This document shows positions 35,237-43,681 of a stretch of 64,000 nt of DNA, in pieces (position 1 is the first letter of the stretch; each line of letters opens with the position of its first letter). Source of the stretch: Flavobacteriaceae bacterium (GTDB taxonomy: Bacteria; Bacteroidota; Bacteroidia; Flavobacteriales; Flavobacteriaceae); NCBI GenBank assembly GCA_029243385.1, contig JAQWSC010000002.1, forward strand, positions 62,001 through 126,000, read 5' to 3'. Below the pieces are notes generated by a model. That model was given only the letters and a program-made list of their open reading frames with translations, searched no databases and was not told where the DNA came from. The translations under genes were made by a program, and so were the position numbers.

Positions 35237-35764
35237 TTATTTGCTGTTGAGTTCCTTTGCGCTTTCAACCCATTTCTTAATTCGATGAATGGGAGTAGAG
35301 AGTGTTTCATTGAGCGTAGATATTTCCTCAATATTTAATTGAGACAATTGCTCATAATTAACCACACCCATAGCATTGAGTTGTTCCTCAATTAATGAAT
35401 CCAGTTCGGTTATTTTTGTCAAATCGTCTTTGTGAGTAGGTTTTTCTGCGTCTTCCTTTTTGTCCAGATCCAACGTAAACTGATTGTTAGAGGAGTCCTT
35501 GGCAAGAACTCCAAATCGATCACGCGTTCTTTTAGCCCTAATAACCGTTAAGTTTTCTTCCAAGTTGATAGAATCGTTATGTGCTCTAAAGGTCTGTTTT
35601 AATCGTTGATTTTCGTTTTGAAAACGCTTTACTTCATCGGATATTTTTTTGGTATTTAATAGCTTGGAATAAAACCAGGCGATAACAAATACTCCAATGA
35701 TAATGATAAAGAGTATCAAATACTCTAAAAAACTTTGTGGTAAAAGGGATTCATTGTGTTGCAT
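35237..35764 (-). CDS. Membrane-anchored protein with C-terminal HhH-like segment
   Basis: A 175-aa protein. A transmembrane helix at about residues 12-34 is followed by a coiled coil (EVKRFQNENQRLKQTF). The last 55 residues (LNAMGVVNYEQLSQLN, then a helix ending in IKKWVESAKEL) look like the helix-hairpin-helix module found at the end of several flavobacterial membrane proteins. The function is unknown. It is 23 nt downstream of an OmpA-like gene on the same strand, probably one operon. Confidence 0.65.
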   Translation of the reverse strand: MQHNESLLPQSFLEYLILFIIIIGVFVIAWFYSKLLNTKKISDEVKRFQNENQRLKQTFRAHNDSINLEENLTVIRAKRTRDRFGVLAKDSSNNQFTLDLDKKEDAEKPTHKDDLTKITELDSLIEEQLNAMGVVNYEQLSQLNIEEISTLNETLSTPIHRIKKWVESAKELNSK

Positions 35765-35787: not shown

Positions 35788-36351
35788 TTACTTTATTATA
35801 AGTTCTATTCTTCTGTTTTTTCTTCGTCCTTCAATAGAGCTGTTGGTGTCTAAGGGCTCTGTTTCTCCTTTAGCGATTGCTATAATTTGATTTTCCTCGA
35901 TTCCTAAATCAATAAAATACTTTTTTAATGTATTGGCTCGTTGTTGACTTACCCAGATATTTACTTCGTCGTCACCTGTACTGTCTGTATGTCCTAAAAT
36001 GTGCAACATTTTATTGGGGTTGTTGGTCAAATGAGCTTGTATTTTTTTGGCGTACGTTCTAAAATCTTCGTCAGGGGTAAAATCGGTCAGGTTAAACCCA
36101 GTATTTATTGTTCTGGGCTCCAATGTATATTGATTGGTTGTCGTGGAATTAGAGAGTGAATCAATAGTTTGAACAACTTTTGTTGAATCAATTACTGCTT
36201 CGTTTGTTTTTGTTTCAGTTGCACTCTGTTTAATGGGAGTAGCAATCTGATGTTGAGCAGCACGATTTTTTTTCACAAAACTTGTGTAAAAATACAATCC
36301 ACCACTAATCCAAATGGTAAGCGATAAAATGGCAGCAATTTTAATTTTCAT
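35788..36351 (-). CDS. OmpA-family peptidoglycan-binding protein
   Basis: A 187-aa protein. A single N-terminal hydrophobic segment (about 5-23) anchors or exports it. A low-complexity linker follows. Residues from about 95 form an OmpA/MotB domain with LGHTDSTGDDEVNIWVSQQRANTLKKYF and a final GRRKNRRIELIIK, which should bind diaminopimelate in peptidoglycan. A TAAATTTG box (minus strand, 36389-36382) lies 30 nt upstream. Confidence 0.85.
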   Translation of the reverse strand: MKIKIAAILSLTIWISGGLYFYTSFVKKNRAAQHQIATPIKQSATETKTNEAVIDSTKVVQTIDSLSNSTTTNQYTLEPRTINTGFNLTDFTPDEDFRTYAKKIQAHLTNNPNKMLHILGHTDSTGDDEVNIWVSQQRANTLKKYFIDLGIEENQIIAIAKGETEPLDTNSSIEGRRKNRRIELIIK

Positions 36352-36527
36352 TTAAAAGTATTTTGTTTTTTGGATTCCCTCCAAATTTACAAAAGATTTT
36401 GTTTAATATAACTAACTTATAATCAATATATTAACTTATTTTTTTATAATTATAACAAAAAAATGATTCCATTTTTAGTGTTTGTTTTTCGAGATAATAA
36501 AAAAAATAATGATATTTGCAGATAATT
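36352..36527. promoter_or_regulatory. Divergent spacer with his promoter candidate
   Basis: An AT-rich stretch. GATATTTG at 36511-36518 is a one-mismatch -7 box 9 nt before the His leader ATG. TAAATTTG on the minus strand at 36389-36382 may serve the OmpA-like gene. Nothing else is visible. Confidence 0.4.
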
Positions 36528-36584
36528 ATGACAAAAACAAACAACCATATCCATCACTCTAGTAGTTTCGCTCAAGCGAGGTGA
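36528..36584 (+). CDS. hisL: His operon leader peptide
   Basis: An 18-codon frame encoding MTKTNNHIHHSSSFAQAR, with His codons at positions 7, 9 and 10 (36546-36557). It lies 84 nt upstream of hisG and directly before a terminator. The segment CTCAAGCG near its stop can pair with the terminator's 5' arm. A ribosome stalled at the His codons would leave that segment free. A short peptide with three His codons in ten, in front of hisG, is hard to explain otherwise. Confidence 0.85.
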   Translation: MTKTNNHIHHSSSFAQAR

Positions 36585-36640
36585 GAGGATATAGTGTACC
36601 ATATTCAGACCCGTTTGAGAATGATCAAGCGGGTTTTTTT
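36571..36640 (+). terminator. His operon attenuator (terminator / antiterminator)
   Basis: Terminator: CCCGTTTGA (36610-36618) pairs with TCAAGCGGG (36625-36633), followed by T7. Antiterminator: CTCAAGCG (36571-36578) pairs with CGTTTGAG (36612-36619), one G-U pair. The two structures share the same strand and exclude each other. The heptamer TCAAGCG occurs in both competing arms. Confidence 0.85.
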
Positions 36641-36668
36641 ATATAAAAACACATGAATTAAATTAATT

Positions 36669-37526
36669 ATGACAACTCTAAACATAGCTATTCAAAAATC
36701 GGGAAGACTGAATGAAGATTCGTTAAAACTTCTAAAATCTTGTGGAATTTCTATTGAAAACGGTAAAGACCAACTCAAAGCTTCTGCACGAAATTTCCCG
36801 ATGAATGTATTCTATCTAAGAAACGGTGACATTCCACAGTATTTAAGAGACGGTGTTATTGATATTGCCATTATTGGCGAAAACCTTTTAGTAGAGAAAG
36901 GACAAGACATTGTAATTGAAGAGCGGCTGGGATTTTCCAAATGCCGTGTTTCTTTAGCGGTTCCAAATCGAATGGAATACAATTCTTTGGAAGATTTAAA
37001 CCATAAAAAAATTGCGACTTCTTATCCCAATACAATTCAATCGTTTTTAAACCAAAAAGGGATTCAATCGGAATTGCACATTATCAACGGTTCGGTAGAA
37101 ATTGCTCCCAACATTGGATTGGCAGACGCTATTTGTGATATTGTTTCGAGTGGAAGCACCCTTTTTAAGAACAATTTAAAGGAGGTGGAAACAATTTTAA
37201 CTTCTGAGGCTGTATTGGCGTCATCGCCCGAAATGACTTCAGAGAAAAAGCAGCTTCTAGACAAACTCTTATTTCGTATTAAATCCGTTCTCAATGCCAA
37301 AAATTCCAAATATATTTTGCTCAATGCTCCCAATGATAAAGTCGAACAAATAGGAAATATTCTCCCTGTTTTAAAAAGCCTTACTGTGTTGCCTTTGGCA
37401 CAAGCGGGTTGGAGTTCCATTCATTCAGTGATTGATGAGCAACGTTTTTGGGAAGTTATTGACGAACTTAAGGCTGCGGGTGCTGAAGATATTTTGGTAT
37501 GTCCTATTGAAAAAATGGTGTTGTAA
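36669..37526 (+). CDS. hisG: ATP phosphoribosyltransferase, long form
   Basis: A 285-aa enzyme for the first step of histidine synthesis. IAIQKSGRLNEDSLKLL at the start, GLADAICDIVSSGSTL near residue 150 for PRPP binding. The C-terminal part (about 215-285) is the ACT-like regulatory domain of the long form, so no HisZ is needed and histidine feedback is expected. It overlaps hisD by one base. Confidence 0.96.
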   Translation: MTTLNIAIQKSGRLNEDSLKLLKSCGISIENGKDQLKASARNFPMNVFYLRNGDIPQYLRDGVIDIAIIGENLLVEKGQDIVIEERLGFSKCRVSLAVPNRMEYNSLEDLNHKKIATSYPNTIQSFLNQKGIQSELHIINGSVEIAPNIGLADAICDIVSSGSTLFKNNLKEVETILTSEAVLASSPEMTSEKKQLLDKLLFRIKSVLNAKNSKYILLNAPNDKVEQIGNILPVLKSLTVLPLAQAGWSSIHSVIDEQRFWEVIDELKAAGAEDILVCPIEKMVL

Positions 37527-38812
37527 TGAAAGTAATTAAATTTCCTTCTCGAAGCGACTGGGCAAAAATACTGGCGAGACCTACACCAACTTTTGAGACC
37601 ATTGAACCATTGGTAGACGAAGTTTTTGATAAGGTCAAATCGCAAGGCGATTCTGCTGTAAGAGATTATACCGCTCAATTTGACGGTTTAAATCTTAATT
37701 CATTTCAAGTCACGCAAGCTGAAATTGATGCAGCAAGTAGCTTCGTAGATAGTGAGCTAAAGAAAGCCATTCAAGTTGCCTATGACAATATATCTCAATT
37801 TCACCAAGCCCAAAAAACAGCTCCTGTTTCTGTAGAAACTCGTCCAGGCGTACAATGTTGGCAAGAAAAACGCCCTATTCAAAAAGTAGGGTTGTACATT
37901 CCGGGTGGAACAGCCCCTTTGTTTTCTACGGTATTGATGTTGGCTATCCCTGCCAAAATAGCAGGTTGTAAAGAAATTGTTCTTTGCTCACCGCCTAATA
38001 ACAAAGGGGAAATAGCATCCGAAATTTTATGGACTGCTCAATTATGCGGTGTCAATCGAATATTCAAAGTAGGAGGTATTCAAGCCATTGCGGCGATGAC
38101 ATTTGGAACACAAACCATTCCAAACGTTTATAAAATATTAGGTCCAGGCAATCAGTTTGTTACGGTTGCCAAGCAAAAAGCTACGCAGTTCAGTGTTGCT
38201 ATTGATATGCCCGCAGGTCCCAGTGAGTTACTTGTGGTAGCTGACGATAGTGCTGTGGCTTCTTACGTTGCTTCTGACCTGCTTTCTCAGGCCGAACACG
38301 GAGCTGACAGCCAAGTGATTTTGGTAACGACTTCTCAAACCCTTTTATTGGAGGTACAGTCCGAAATCCAAAAGCAACTGTCATTGCTTTCGCGAAGTGA
38401 AATTGCTTCTAAGGCTATGCTCAATTCCAAATTGATTTTGGTAGAAAATGAAAACGAAGCCCTTGAATTGATTGACGAATACGGGCCAGAACACTATATC
38501 ATCTGTATGAATAACGAAAAGAAGTTTGTGGATAGTATTCAAAATGCAGGTTCAGTATTTATTGGAAATTACACTCCCGAGAGTGCTGGTGATTACGCAT
38601 CAGGAACCAATCATACACTACCAACAAATGGATATGCAAAGCAGTACAGCGGAGTCAATTTAGACAGCTTTACCAAGGCAATTACTTTTCAGAAAATTTC
38701 AAAAAATGGAATTTTGCAATTAGGAAAAACCATTGAGTTGATGGCTGCTGCTGAAGGACTGGATGCGCACAAAAATGCGGTTTCCATTCGACTAAACGAT
38801 TTAAACAAATAA
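37526..38812 (+). CDS. hisD: Histidinol dehydrogenase
   Basis: A 428-aa NAD- and Zn-dependent enzyme for the last two steps of histidine synthesis. GLYIPGGTAPLFSTVLMLAIPAKIAG, GPGNQFVTVAK, the catalytic SQAEHGADSQVILV, GPEHYI and YASGTNHTLPT are all present. Confidence 0.96.
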   Translation: MKVIKFPSRSDWAKILARPTPTFETIEPLVDEVFDKVKSQGDSAVRDYTAQFDGLNLNSFQVTQAEIDAASSFVDSELKKAIQVAYDNISQFHQAQKTAPVSVETRPGVQCWQEKRPIQKVGLYIPGGTAPLFSTVLMLAIPAKIAGCKEIVLCSPPNNKGEIASEILWTAQLCGVNRIFKVGGIQAIAAMTFGTQTIPNVYKILGPGNQFVTVAKQKATQFSVAIDMPAGPSELLVVADDSAVASYVASDLLSQAEHGADSQVILVTTSQTLLLEVQSEIQKQLSLLSRSEIASKAMLNSKLILVENENEALELIDEYGPEHYIICMNNEKKFVDSIQNAGSVFIGNYTPESAGDYASGTNHTLPTNGYAKQYSGVNLDSFTKAITFQKISKNGILQLGKTIELMAAAEGLDAHKNAVSIRLNDLNK

Positions 38813-38845
38813 ACTCCGATTCCTAAAAAGAAAGGACCACGACCA

Positions 38846-39898
38846 ATGAAAACGAATTTTAATCTTTCCAAATGGGTGCGAACCAATGTTTTGAATCTCA
38901 AGGCATATTCTTCTGCGCGTGACGAATTTTCAGATCCACGCGCTGAAATGACCTTTTTGGACGCCAATGAGAATCCGTTCGATAACGGAATCAATCGCTA
39001 TCCCGATCCGCAACAAAAAGTTCTAAAAGCTGCTTTGGCTTCTTTAAAAGGCGTTGACCCTCAACAAATTTTGTTAGGGAATGGCAGCGATGAAGTCTTG
39101 GATTTGATTTTTAGAGTGTTTTGTGAACCCAATCAAGATGAAGTCATCACACTACCTCCTACCTATGGAATGTACAGCGTTTTGGCAAATACCAATGCCG
39201 TAGCCAACATTGAAGTTCCCTTGACCGAAAATTTTCAACCCAATGTATCGGCAATCTTAAAAAAGGTCACCCCCAAAACCAAAGCACTCCTTTTATGCTC
39301 TCCCAACAACCCTTCAGGAAACTCTTTCGATGCAGACGTACTGCAGGCATTGATTTCTCAATTTCCAGGAATTGTTGTTGTAGATGAAGCCTATATTGAT
39401 TTTTCAAGTCAGCAGAGTTTGTTGACCAACCTCAATGACTTTCCCAATCTGATCGTCACACAAACCTTTTCAAAGGCCTATGGCATGGCTGGAATCCGTT
39501 TGGGAGCTTGTTATGCCAGCATCGATATCATTGCGCTACTCAACCGCATTAAGCCTCCTTATAATATCAACGTGCTTACCCAACAACGCGCCTTGGAAGG
39601 TTTGGCAAACCAACGTCACATTCAAGCTCAAGTCGAAACTCTTTTGCAGGAACGCAATCGAATTCAAAAAGCGTTGGAATCCGTTTCGATTGTTGAGAAA
39701 ATATATCCTTCCGATGCCAATTTTATTTTGGCAAAAGTTGATGATGCTGCCTTGCGTTACCAACAGCTCATTGAAAAAGAAATAGTAACTCGCAATCGCA
39801 GTAATCAATTGCTATGTAATGAGTGTTTGCGTTTTACGGTCGGAACTCCTGAAGAAAATGACCGCCTCATTGAGGCTTTAAATACATTGTCATGTTAA
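38846..39898 (+). CDS. hisC: Histidinol-phosphate aminotransferase
   Basis: A 350-aa fold-type I PLP aminotransferase. [35 protein letters not shown], and the PLP lysine in [16 protein letters not shown] are present. Its 3' end overlaps hisB by 7 nt. Confidence 0.95.
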
Positions 39899-41025
39899 AA
39901 AAAGTATTATTTATTGATCGCGATGGAACACTGGCTTTGGAGCCAGAAAACTATCAGCTGGATGATTTTTCAAAATTGTCTTTTTACCCAAAAGTGTTTA
40001 CCTATTTAGGAAAAATCGCCAAAGAACTGGATTTCGAATTGGTTATGGTAACCAATCAAGACGGTTTGGGAACGGATAGCTTTCCGGAAGACACGTTTTG
40101 GCCTGTTCAAAATTTTCTGATTGAATCGTTTCAAAACGAAGGAATTGTTTTTAATGATATTCTCATTGATCGTAGCTTTCCACAGGACAACGCTCCAACT
40201 CGCAAGCCTCGAACAGGAATGATGACAGCTTATTTGGATACTTCTCAATACGATTTGGAAAACTCCTACGTGATTGGAGATCGTGTAACAGATATTGAAT
40301 TGGCCAAAAACATAGGAGCCAAAGGAATTTTTATTGGCAACGATACGACTCTAGGAGCTTCTGAAACATCGGGAGATCCGTTACAGAAAACTACAGTCCT
40401 TTCGACCACCGATTGGGAAGAAATATATACCTTTTTAAAACTCGCCAGTCGCACAGCTACATTAAAGCGCACCACGCACGAAACCGATATTGAAATCGAG
40501 TTGAATTTGGATGGAACAGCCAACAGTCAAATTGATACAGGCATTGCTTTTTTTGACCACATGCTCGATCAATTGGCACGTCACGGACAAATGGATTTAA
40601 ACATCCGTGTTCAAGGTGATTTGGAGGTTGATGAACACCACACCATTGAAGACACTGCCATTGCTTTGGGAGAAACTTTTGCAGCTGCCTTGGGAAACAA
40701 GCTCGGAATTGAACGTTACGGGTTTTGCTTACCCATGGATGATTGTTTGGCACAAGTATCTATTGACTTTGGTGGAAGAAACTGGTTGGTCTGGGAAACA
40801 GAATTTAAACGTGAAATGGTAGGTAAAATGCCTACGGAAATGTTTATGCACTTTTTCAAATCCTTTACAGATGGCGCCAAGGCCAATTTGAATATCAAAG
40901 CCGAAGGCGTCAACGAACACCACAAAATAGAAGCTATTTTTAAGGCCTTTGCCAAAGCCATTAAAGCGGCCGTAAAGCGTGATACCGAAAAAATGATATT
41001 ACCCTCTACCAAAGGAATGTTGTAA
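39892..41025 (+). CDS. hisB: Bifunctional histidinol-phosphatase / imidazoleglycerol-phosphate dehydratase
   Basis: A 377-aa fusion. Residues 1 to about 165 are a HAD phosphatase with nucleophile motif FIDRDGTLA and [17 protein letters not shown]. Residues from about 185 are the dehydratase with [22 protein letters not shown] and the metal motif [10 protein letters not shown]. It performs two separate steps of the pathway. Confidence 0.96.
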
Positions 41026-41027
41026 AG

Positions 41028-41612
41028 ATGAAGACAGTCATTATTGATTACGGAGCAGGAAATATTCAAAGCATTCAGTTTGCCTTTGCTCGATTGGGTA
41101 TAGATGCTGTATTGTCGAGTGATTCAAATGAAATTGTTGCAGCAGATCGTGTGATTTTCCCTGGAGTAGGGGAAGCCAGCAGTGCCATGTCAAAACTCAA
41201 GGATTCAGGCTTAGACGCCTTGATTCCAACGCTCAAACAACCCGTACTGGGAATTTGTTTGGGAATGCAACTGATGTGTAACTACTCCGAAGAAGGCGAT
41301 ACGCAAGGTCTTGGTATTTTTGATGTTGACGTAAAGCGATTCACTTCGGCGGTAAAAGTTCCGCAAATGGGATGGAACGCTTTGACCCAACTAAAATCTT
41401 CGTTTTTTAGTCACACTACTGACAATGCCTATGTGTATTTGGTACACAGTTATTATGCTCCTTTGTGTGATCAAACTGTGGCACAAACCACCTATGAAGT
41501 TGCTTACAGTGCTGCTTTGCAAAAAGACAATTTTACCGGTGTTCAATTTCACCCCGAAAAGAGTGGGGAAGTCGGCGCTCAGTTATTAACTAATTTTTTA
41601 AATCAATCCTAA
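41028..41612 (+). CDS. hisH: Imidazole glycerol phosphate synthase, glutamine amidotransferase subunit
   Basis: A 194-aa class I amidotransferase. Nucleophile Cys in [10 protein letters not shown], and the His-Glu pair in QFHPEKSG. It feeds ammonia to HisF. One base overlaps hisA. Confidence 0.96.
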
Positions 41613-42334
41613 TGAGAATTATTCCCGCCATTGATTTGATAGACGGTCAGTGCGTTCGCTTGTCCAAAGGCGACTACGCCACCAAAAAAATATACAACGA
41701 AAATCCGTTGGAAGTTGCCAAGCAATTTGAAGATCACGGAATTGAATATTTACACTTGGTAGATTTGGACGGAGCCAAGTCCCAACACATAGTCAATCAC
41801 AAAATATTGGAAACACTAGCTACCAAAACCCAATTAAAGATTGATTTTGGCGGTGGTCTTAAAACCGACGATGATTTGCGGATTGCCTTTGAATGCGGAG
41901 CTTCTCAAATTACAGGAGGAAGTATAGCCGTCAAAAACCCAGTTTTGTTTACCCATTGGATCGAACAATACGGATCGGATCGTATTATTTTGGGTGCCGA
42001 TGCACAGCATGAGAAAATAGCTATCAACGGATGGCAGGAAGCTTCTGAGCTCGAACTGATTCCTTTTGTACAGGACTATCAACAAAAAGGCATCCAATAC
42101 GTTATTTGTACCGATATTAGTAAGGACGGAATGCTAGAAGGGCCTTCTTTTGCGTTGTACCAGCGTATGTTAGAAAGCAGTCCAGATTTGAAATTAATTG
42201 CCTCTGGTGGCATAGCATCCTTTGACGAGCTTCCTCGTTTGGCCGAAATGGGCTGTGAGGGCACTATCATTGGAAAAGCCATATACGAAAACAGAATCTC
42301 ATTGAAACAACTCGAACAATACATAGTACAATAA
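41612..42334 (+). CDS. hisA: Phosphoribosylformimino-5-aminoimidazole carboxamide ribotide isomerase
   Basis: A 240-aa TIM barrel. [22 protein letters not shown] with the catalytic Asp near residue 8, [18 protein letters not shown] and [11 protein letters not shown] are typical. Confidence 0.96.
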
Positions 42335-42335
42335 A

Positions 42336-43091
42336 ATGCTAACTAAACGAATCATACCGTGTTTGGACGTTAAAGATGGGCGTACTGTCAAAGGAGTCAA
42401 TTTTGTCAATCTTCGCGATGCAGGCGACCCAGTGGAGTTGGCAGCAGCCTATGCGCTAAATGGCGCCGATGAGTTGGTTTTTTTGGACATTTCGGCCTCC
42501 GAAGAAAAACGAAAAACCCTTGCCGACATGGTCTATCGTGTGGCCGAGCAAATCAATATACCCTTTACCGTAGGGGGAGGAATTGCATCGGTAGAAGACG
42601 TGGATATATTGCTCAAAAACGGAGCAGACAAGGTCTCTATCAATTCGTCGGCAGTCAAAAATCCCGGTTTGATCAACGAACTCGCTGCCAAATTTGGCAG
42701 TCAGTGCATCGTCGTTGCTATTGACGCCAAGCAAATTGACGGTCAATGGAAAGTGCATTTGGTAGGAGGGAAGGTTCCTACGGACATTGACTTGTTTGAT
42801 TGGGCCAAAGAAGTGGCTCAGCGAGGAGCAGGCGAAATTTTGTTTACATCGATGGATCACGATGGAACCAAAAATGGATTTGCTAACAATGCATTGGCAA
42901 CCATCTCTACGAGCGTCAATATTCCTGTTATTGCGTCGGGCGGAGCTGGGAAAATTCCCCACTTTGTTGACACATTTGTCTCAGGAAAGGCCGATGCCGC
43001 ATTGGCAGCCAGTATTTTTCATTTTAAAGAAATAGAAATTAACGCTTTGAAAAAAGCCTTACATTCGCAACAAATACCGATTCGATTATGA
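42336..43091 (+). CDS. hisF: Imidazole glycerol phosphate synthase, cyclase subunit
   Basis: A 251-aa TIM barrel partner of His[43 protein letters not shown] and [11 protein letters not shown] carry the two catalytic aspartates. It overlaps hisIE by 4 nt. Confidence 0.96.
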
Positions 43092-43681
43092 CACCAAATT
43101 TTGATAAAAACCCCGACGGATTGCTACCCGCCATTGTACAAGATGCTACAACACAAAAAGTGTTGATGCTTGGTTATATGAATGCCGATGCTTTGCAAAA
43201 AACCCAAGAATCAGGAAAGGTTACTTTTTACAGTCGCTCTAAAAATCGACTGTGGACCAAAGGCGAAGAGAGCGGTCATTTTTTAATCTGTAAAGACATC
43301 CAACTCGATTGTGACAACGATGCTTTCTTGATTCAAGCCCAGCCGCAAGGGCCTACGTGTCACCAAGGAACGGATACTTGTTGGGGTGAATCCAATACTG
43401 CCAATTACGGTTTTTTATCTGAATTGGAAGCTGTGATAGCCCAGCGAACTACCGAAAAACCTGAAGACAGCTATGTAGCTTCTTTGTTCGAAAAAGGGAT
43501 CAATAAAATTGCTCAAAAAGTAGGCGAGGAAGCTGTTGAAGTCGTTATTGAAGCCAAAGACAATAACGATCAGTTGTTTTTGGATGAATCGGCCGATTTG
43601 CTGTTTCACTATTTGATGCTGTTGCGTGCCAAAGGCTATTCGTTGGACGCTGTTGTTGATGTACTGAAAAAAAGACATTAA
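43088..43681 (+). CDS. hisIE: Bifunctional phosphoribosyl-AMP cyclohydrolase / phosphoribosyl-ATP pyrophosphatase
   Basis: A 197-aa fusion. HisI part: [28 protein letters not shown] and DCDNDAFL with the Zn cysteines. HisE part from about residue 110: [20 protein letters not shown]. It is the last gene of the operon, which therefore holds every enzyme activity of the pathway. Confidence 0.96.

Follow-up and report, generated by a model that had tools for sequence, protein, structure and literature searches.

A probable ribosome-mediated histidine attenuator in front of hisG in Flavobacteriaceae

In the 64,000-nucleotide stretch of a Flavobacteriaceae genome analysed here (the window), a short open reading frame rich in histidine codons precedes hisG, which raises the question of whether this leader controls the transcription of the his genes behind it. 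Attenuators can be recognized by end-product codons clustered in a short leader ORF, an intrinsic terminator between the leader and the first structural gene, an antiterminator that excludes this terminator and shows covariation, and a spacing at which a stalled ribosome frees the antiterminator arm while a finishing ribosome covers it. From the sequence and its comparison with relatives, we assign a probability of about 93% to the reading that the leader is a ribosome-mediated transcription attenuator sensing charged His-tRNA. Such a switch would very probably restrict histidine synthesis to times of shortage. Judged by the comparative signs, the element is real and functional. Its parts are the following:

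36528-36584, plus strand: leader ORF MTKTNNHIHHSSSFAQAR with 18 codons, from ATG 36528 to TGA 36584, kept in relatives
36546-36548, 36552-36554 and 36555-36557, plus strand: His codons of the leader
36541-36558, plus strand: arm A of a protecting hairpin, over the His codons, its pairing supported by swap and covariation tests in relatives
36571-36582, plus strand: 5' arm x of the antiterminator, CTCAAGCGAGGT, within the last four leader codons
36580-36597, plus strand: arm B of the protecting hairpin, reaching over the stop codon and 13 nt further, its pairing supported by the same tests
36609-36619, plus strand: shared arm D, ACCCGTTTGAG, with x (antiterminator) or 36625-36634 (terminator) as partner
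36607-36618 and 36625-36636, plus strand: stem of the intrinsic terminator found by the terminator scan (12 pairs, loop of 6), with T7 at 36634-36640

A preliminary description of this DNA had proposed an 18-codon leader with three His codons within four, a terminator with T7 after it, and an alternative pairing that overlaps the 5' arm of the terminator, and all three were borne out. The leader ORF has the proposed density of three His in four codons; in shuffled versions of the upstream region of the window, the chance of an ORF of at most 30 amino acids with this density was 3 in 1000. The terminator was the single terminator-like site that the scan found in 36300-36800, compared with 0.2 +/- 0.6 in shuffles, and it lies between the leader and the first structural gene. 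The alternative pairing, proposed for CTCAAGCG (36571-36578) with CGTTTGAG (36612-36619), is longer than described, as CTCAAGCG-A-GGT can pair with ACC-CGTTTGAG, which extends it to 36571-36582 with 36609-36619. This pairing of x with D and the terminator are mutually exclusive. The 126-nt leader of the window has a folding energy of -33.4 kcal/mol (z -4.3), which none of 200 shuffles reached, and the predicted energies of the antiterminator and terminator states are -17.5 and -15.0 kcal/mol, with means of -18.2 and -14.7 in 159 upstream regions of the family. A comparison of 36480-36700 with plasmid records gave no match.

As the pairings A:B and x:D cross, x is located in the loop of A:B, and the following course of events can be proposed. 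RNA polymerase would initiate a short way before the leader ORF, with a ribosome trailing it. With ample His-tRNA, the ribosome would reach the stop codon and cover x, whereupon D would pair with its 3' partner, the terminator would form and the his operon would stay untranscribed. With scarce His-tRNA, the ribosome would stall on the His codons with its leading edge just before x; the stalled ribosome would break A:B, x would pair with newly made D, and the terminator would be prevented. If no ribosome loads, x would stay enclosed by A:B, and the terminator would likewise form. Leader translation, the start site, stalling and the histidine response enter this scheme as predictions.

A search of 397 family genomes found hisG in 334. 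We assembled 170 loci, comprising the best 30, 80 named loci (including Maribacter, Kordia, Zobellia, Muricauda, Aquimarina and uncultured Flavobacteriaceae, with family membership taken from titles) and 60 further stretches; removal of exact duplicates left 160 upstream regions, in which near relatives are over-represented. The preliminary description had named relatives without His codons or without both pairings as evidence against an attenuator; the comparison did not refute it. Leader and terminator were found together in 159 of the 160 regions, and both pairings were predicted in nearly all. L071 showed no leader ORF in the 180 nt before its contig end. The 159 regions represent 146 distinct leaders, since in some cases regions of one genome have a leader in common, and the terminator was recognized in 159/159 by a regular-expression pattern that was devised after the first sequences had been inspected. 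At least three His in four codons were present in 136 of the 146 distinct leaders and two in the other 10, among them the nearest relative (L002), whose HLIHH holds three His in five codons. Short ORFs (at most 30 amino acids) with three His in four codons occurred in 54 of 62 real non-redundant regions versus 4 of 1240 shuffled ones, and all 14 of 14 further family members had an upstream ORF with at least three His in five codons. Typical leader peptides of the family are MRNKNTHHHFYTCPQAR and MTFIQTHHHFHICSQAK.

A structured leader with a terminator in front of a biosynthetic operon could in principle also be a his-specific RNA element that senses its ligand without translation, such as a T-box or a metabolite riboswitch, with the His-rich ORF being incidental. 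The window, however, gave no Rfam match at the gathering score, and with the cut-off relaxed to E 10 nothing but sRNA matches below threshold came up. In the two central His codons, C and A at the first and second positions are retained in 44-45 of 47 sequences, while T and C exchange more at the third; in addition, the distance from these codons to x is fixed. We give this explanation a very small chance, and the identification as a T-box or riboswitch was rejected as no such covariance model matched.

The spacing of the elements speaks for the attenuator. Counted from the first base of the last His codon, x lies 17 nt away in 125 of the 143 distinct leaders that could be measured, and the stop is 10 nt from x in 133 of these 143 (x was found by pattern in 143 of the 146; the other three have a stop inside x). 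The distance from the stop to the terminator, in contrast, varies between 29 and 45 nt (155 of 159 regions). The distance that depends on the ribosome is thus the constrained one. A ribosome reaches about 15 nt beyond the first base in its P site. With this footprint, a ribosome with the last His codon in its A site would reach about 36567, just short of x at 36571, and a ribosome at the stop would be expected to cover x and part of B. The geometry proposed in the preliminary description, in which stalling opens the arm and finishing covers it, therefore fits the spacing. The arrangement as such is not the enteric one: here the antiterminator arm occupies the final four codons and is enclosed by the protecting hairpin, in its loop.

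Selection on x at the RNA level is also apparent from exceptional leaders. In three of them (L094, L119 and L144), x-like nucleotides are read in another frame, so that the peptides end in SNEL or SNEM; in four (L023, L025, L040 and L077), a stop codon lies within x; and in L018, x follows the stop. As the x nucleotides are kept despite the changed frame or stop, the conserved QAR end of the peptide reflects the RNA and not the peptide. This bears on the view that the hairpin merely terminates transcription from upstream and that the leader codes for a small peptide which is made for a function of its own. Leader peptides are indeed alike among relatives, but the retention of the QAR nucleotides in other frames or across stops argues for a function in the RNA, and the two ORFs next upstream of the leader (35237-35764 and 35788-36351) are on the minus strand. 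We consider this view highly improbable.

We examined both pairings by folding, swapping of arms and covariation. A:B with at least 6 pairs was part of the minimum-energy fold without ribosome in 146 of 146 distinct family leaders, and x:D with at least 6 pairs was part of it in 144 of 146 when a ribosome was simulated on the His codons. The mean A:B duplex energy in 62 sequences was -13.3 kcal/mol for native and -10.4 for swapped arms, with none of 2000 permutations as low. Covariation of A:B was analysed in the 46 of 62 non-redundant sequences with modal spacing, without gaps and anchored on x. In the best register, the last His codon together with the two codons after it pairs with the last base of x, the stop codon and the bases that follow. 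Pair -11/+11 changed between UA (22) and CG (13 of 46), which none of 1000 shuffles equalled; pair -13/+13 was equalled by 4 of 1000, and most other pairs were individually non-significant. One alignment comprised 60 of the 62 sequences, all but L018 and L038. The consensus fold of the MAFFT alignment missed A:B over the His codons, in our opinion because indels in the His codons shift the arm. As x and D are nearly invariant within the family, hardly any x:D covariation is to be found there, and evidence of this type has to come from other families.

From other families of the phylum, we analysed 66 stretches upstream of hisG, 34 in the same class and 32 in other classes. An ORF with three His in five codons was present in 34/34 of the same class (versus 18/680 shuffles) and in 26/32 of other classes (versus 9/640 shuffles); it was absent in the remaining 6/32. 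Terminator-like hairpins of any strength within 95 nt were found in 29/34 and 20/32 regions, respectively. As the finder misses some terminators (L175) and accepts weak ones, the x:D tests were limited to hairpins of -9 kcal/mol or better, which 32 of the 66 loci possess; together with six loci of the window's family, these 32 formed the swap set. Native x:D duplexes had a mean of -13.3 and swapped ones of -8.4 (-8.1 for partners from another family and -11.7 from the same family), and none of 5000 permutations was as low. Runs of at least 8 pairs were found in 19 of 32 native combinations versus 16% of 884 swaps between families, whereas runs of at least 6 pairs discriminate poorly (30 of 32 native versus 72% of such swaps). 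The stem sequences differ between families, and the antiterminator and terminator arms change jointly, as in TTAGACGG/CCGTCTGA (family f2), GGTAGGCC/GGCTTACC (f4) and GTGTCGG/CCGGCAC (f16). This pattern fits a compensatory change of x with D and with D's terminator partner, and the support of the antiterminator by covariation comes from this comparison between families, in particular from the energy swap and the runs of 8 pairs; some GC-rich cases (L225 and L183) look like chance pairings.

With a covariance model built from the family leader, 76 of 295 genomes in the class gave matches at E 0.001, the window's family included, and many of these were weak. We retrieved the 15 strongest matches from families other than f2 and that of the window. 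Those with at least 54 bits, 10 in 9 families, all directly precede hisG, compared with 2 of the 5 weaker ones; matches below about 45 bits are often not his leaders. In one locus of another class (L205 from genome G538, family f34), the leader is Flavobacteriaceae-like, and its HisG is 65% identical to that of the window, compared with 46-48% for the f34 relatives listed; a transfer of the his operon along with its attenuator is possible.

Families f23 (L231-L240, L243 and L244) and f3 (L200-L204) have His-rich leader ORFs before hisG in 17 of 17 loci, with up to 10 His. None of these 17 ORFs is followed by a hairpin that reaches -9 kcal/mol, and these leaders possibly exert Rho-dependent or translational control. 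Together with the six loci of other classes that have no such ORF, they indicate that the phylum does not share one uniform mechanism. For the window itself, translational control would mean that the leader ribosome governs access to the hisG start by reinitiation or sequestering. In Bacteroidetes, leader ORFs are reported to peak at 11-14 bp upstream of genes (PMC4833913), which would speak for it, as would the f3 and f23 leaders without clear terminator. The leader stop of the window, however, is 84 nt from hisG with the intrinsic terminator and its T7 in between, and the shared arm D is part of that terminator and not of the hisG start region, which makes translational control very unlikely here.

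The promoter and operon features around the leader are:

36511-36518, plus strand: element GATATTTG resembling the sigma-A -7 box, matching TAnnTTTG at 5 of its 6 fixed positions
36523-36527, plus strand: predicted 5-nt 5' UTR of the leader, by eye without Shine-Dalgarno-like sequence
36669-43681, plus strand: predicted regulated operon hisG-hisD-hisC-hisB-hisH-hisA-hisF-hisIE

The transcription start is predicted near 36523. A TAnnTTTG-like box (at least 5 of 6 positions) within 35 nt of the start codon was present in 60 of 62 non-redundant leaders versus 38% of shuffles. It was offset from the start codon by 7 nt in 32% and by 8 nt in 18%, with a smaller group at 17-22 nt; the picker favours the box closest to the start codon on ties, and the offset profile gives the same peak. 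According to the promoter data in the Flavobacterium psychrophilum transcriptome study (PMC9723704), the sigma-A box is at -12 to -5, the median 5' UTR is 24 nt and 5.5% of the mRNAs are leaderless. With this box position, the offsets translate into a predicted leader UTR of about 3-5 nt in most cases and of 13-18 nt in others. All eight his genes, each named by NCBIfam, are on one strand with the hisG start at 36669, shortly beyond the 36528-36640 of the preliminary description, and as they are closely spaced, they probably form one transcript.

Further leaders occur in the same genome. Before trpE (at 9905 of contig C11), MKNNNTHIGWWKLRNALSQ and a terminator (L251/L260) match RF01692 with 51.2 bits; by eye, a 10-nt stretch at the stop complements the loop and 3' arm of this terminator and not its 5' arm. 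On contig C2, MKRKIHIVISIVGY with Ile/Val codons (L259) is followed by a T-rich terminator and a gene that we take, from its sequence, to be ilvD. A TAnnTTTG box ends 4 nt before the ATG of this leader, and the ilvD message may for this reason be leaderless. Before an aspartate kinase gene (at 21493 of contig C14), MKNGLTALFSNLIFAMSTIIITPFGV with Thr/Ile codons (L254) is followed by a hairpin, weak as judged by eye, and T5. The conservation of the his leader, its nearly leaderless promoter and the trp, Thr/Ile and Ile/Val leaders that accompany it in this 1.7-Mb genome suggest that attenuation is one of the main routes of amino-acid control here.

Taken together, ORF, terminator, conservation and fixed spacing are directly supported, as are the alternative pairings at the level of prediction and covariation. 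We consider it rather likely that they represent a widespread and probably old histidine attenuator of Bacteroidota that is built for translation without Shine-Dalgarno sites: with the leader ORF only about 0-18 nt (mostly 3-5) from the 5' end of the transcript, the first ribosome would load as the RNA emerges, the 17-nt spacing would record a close coupling of transcription and translation in the phylum, and the stems would have been rewritten in each family with the architecture unchanged. The attenuator thereby offers a genetically simple assay of transcription-translation coupling in Bacteroidota, a subject on which our search brought up no dedicated paper among the matches listed, as judged from their entries. 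It also puts on offer a his leader family that Rfam 15 does not recognize.

Leader peptides as such are not new to these bacteria. Bacteroid-trp (RF01692), included in a table of PMC2864571, is likewise a peptide leader RNA of Bacteroidota, but it senses Trp; its model matched neither the his leader of the window nor those of L005, L010, L180, L184 and L226. In F. psychrophilum, also a member of Flavobacteriaceae, transcriptome data had revealed structured 5' regions and clues to leader-peptide attenuation before amino-acid operons in 2021, with neither a named his leader nor a comparative test in the passages concerned (PMC9723704). Short ORFs reminiscent of leader peptides are mentioned for 5' UTRs of B. 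thetaiotaomicron (PMC7366714), and a paper on Bacteroidota his genes describes attenuation, in the passage concerned, for enterics (PMC8305728). Our literature search found no paper on a his attenuator of Bacteroidota; Lopatovskaya 2010 and Vitreschak 2004 may already list some. The novelty of the element for Bacteroidota is weaker than the preliminary description had put it, given RF01692 in the same genome and the F. psychrophilum study. Outside Proteobacteria, His-codon leader peptides are known before hisZ/hisS of bacilli, a different phylum with different genes, whose authors stated in 2010 that they knew of no earlier leader peptide system outside Proteobacteria and Actinobacteria (PMC2965389).

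The closest known counterpart is the his attenuator of Escherichia coli and Salmonella, with which the leader of the window shares the His-codon ORF, the terminator, the alternative antiterminator and the position before hisG. The enteric leader, which we take to be RF00514, has a run of seven His codons. The Rfam model of the enteric his leader did not match the window at the gathering score, nor was a match up to E 10 listed in 36400-36720. In comparison to the enteric leader, that of the window has fewer His codons, its antiterminator arm falls in the last codons, where the protecting hairpin loops around it, and it combines a very short predicted 5' UTR (mostly 3-5 nt) with no Shine-Dalgarno-like site by eye. 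The kind of attenuator is therefore a known one, also in Bacteroidota, and what the window adds is a his member with a geometry of its own from a thinly documented phylum.
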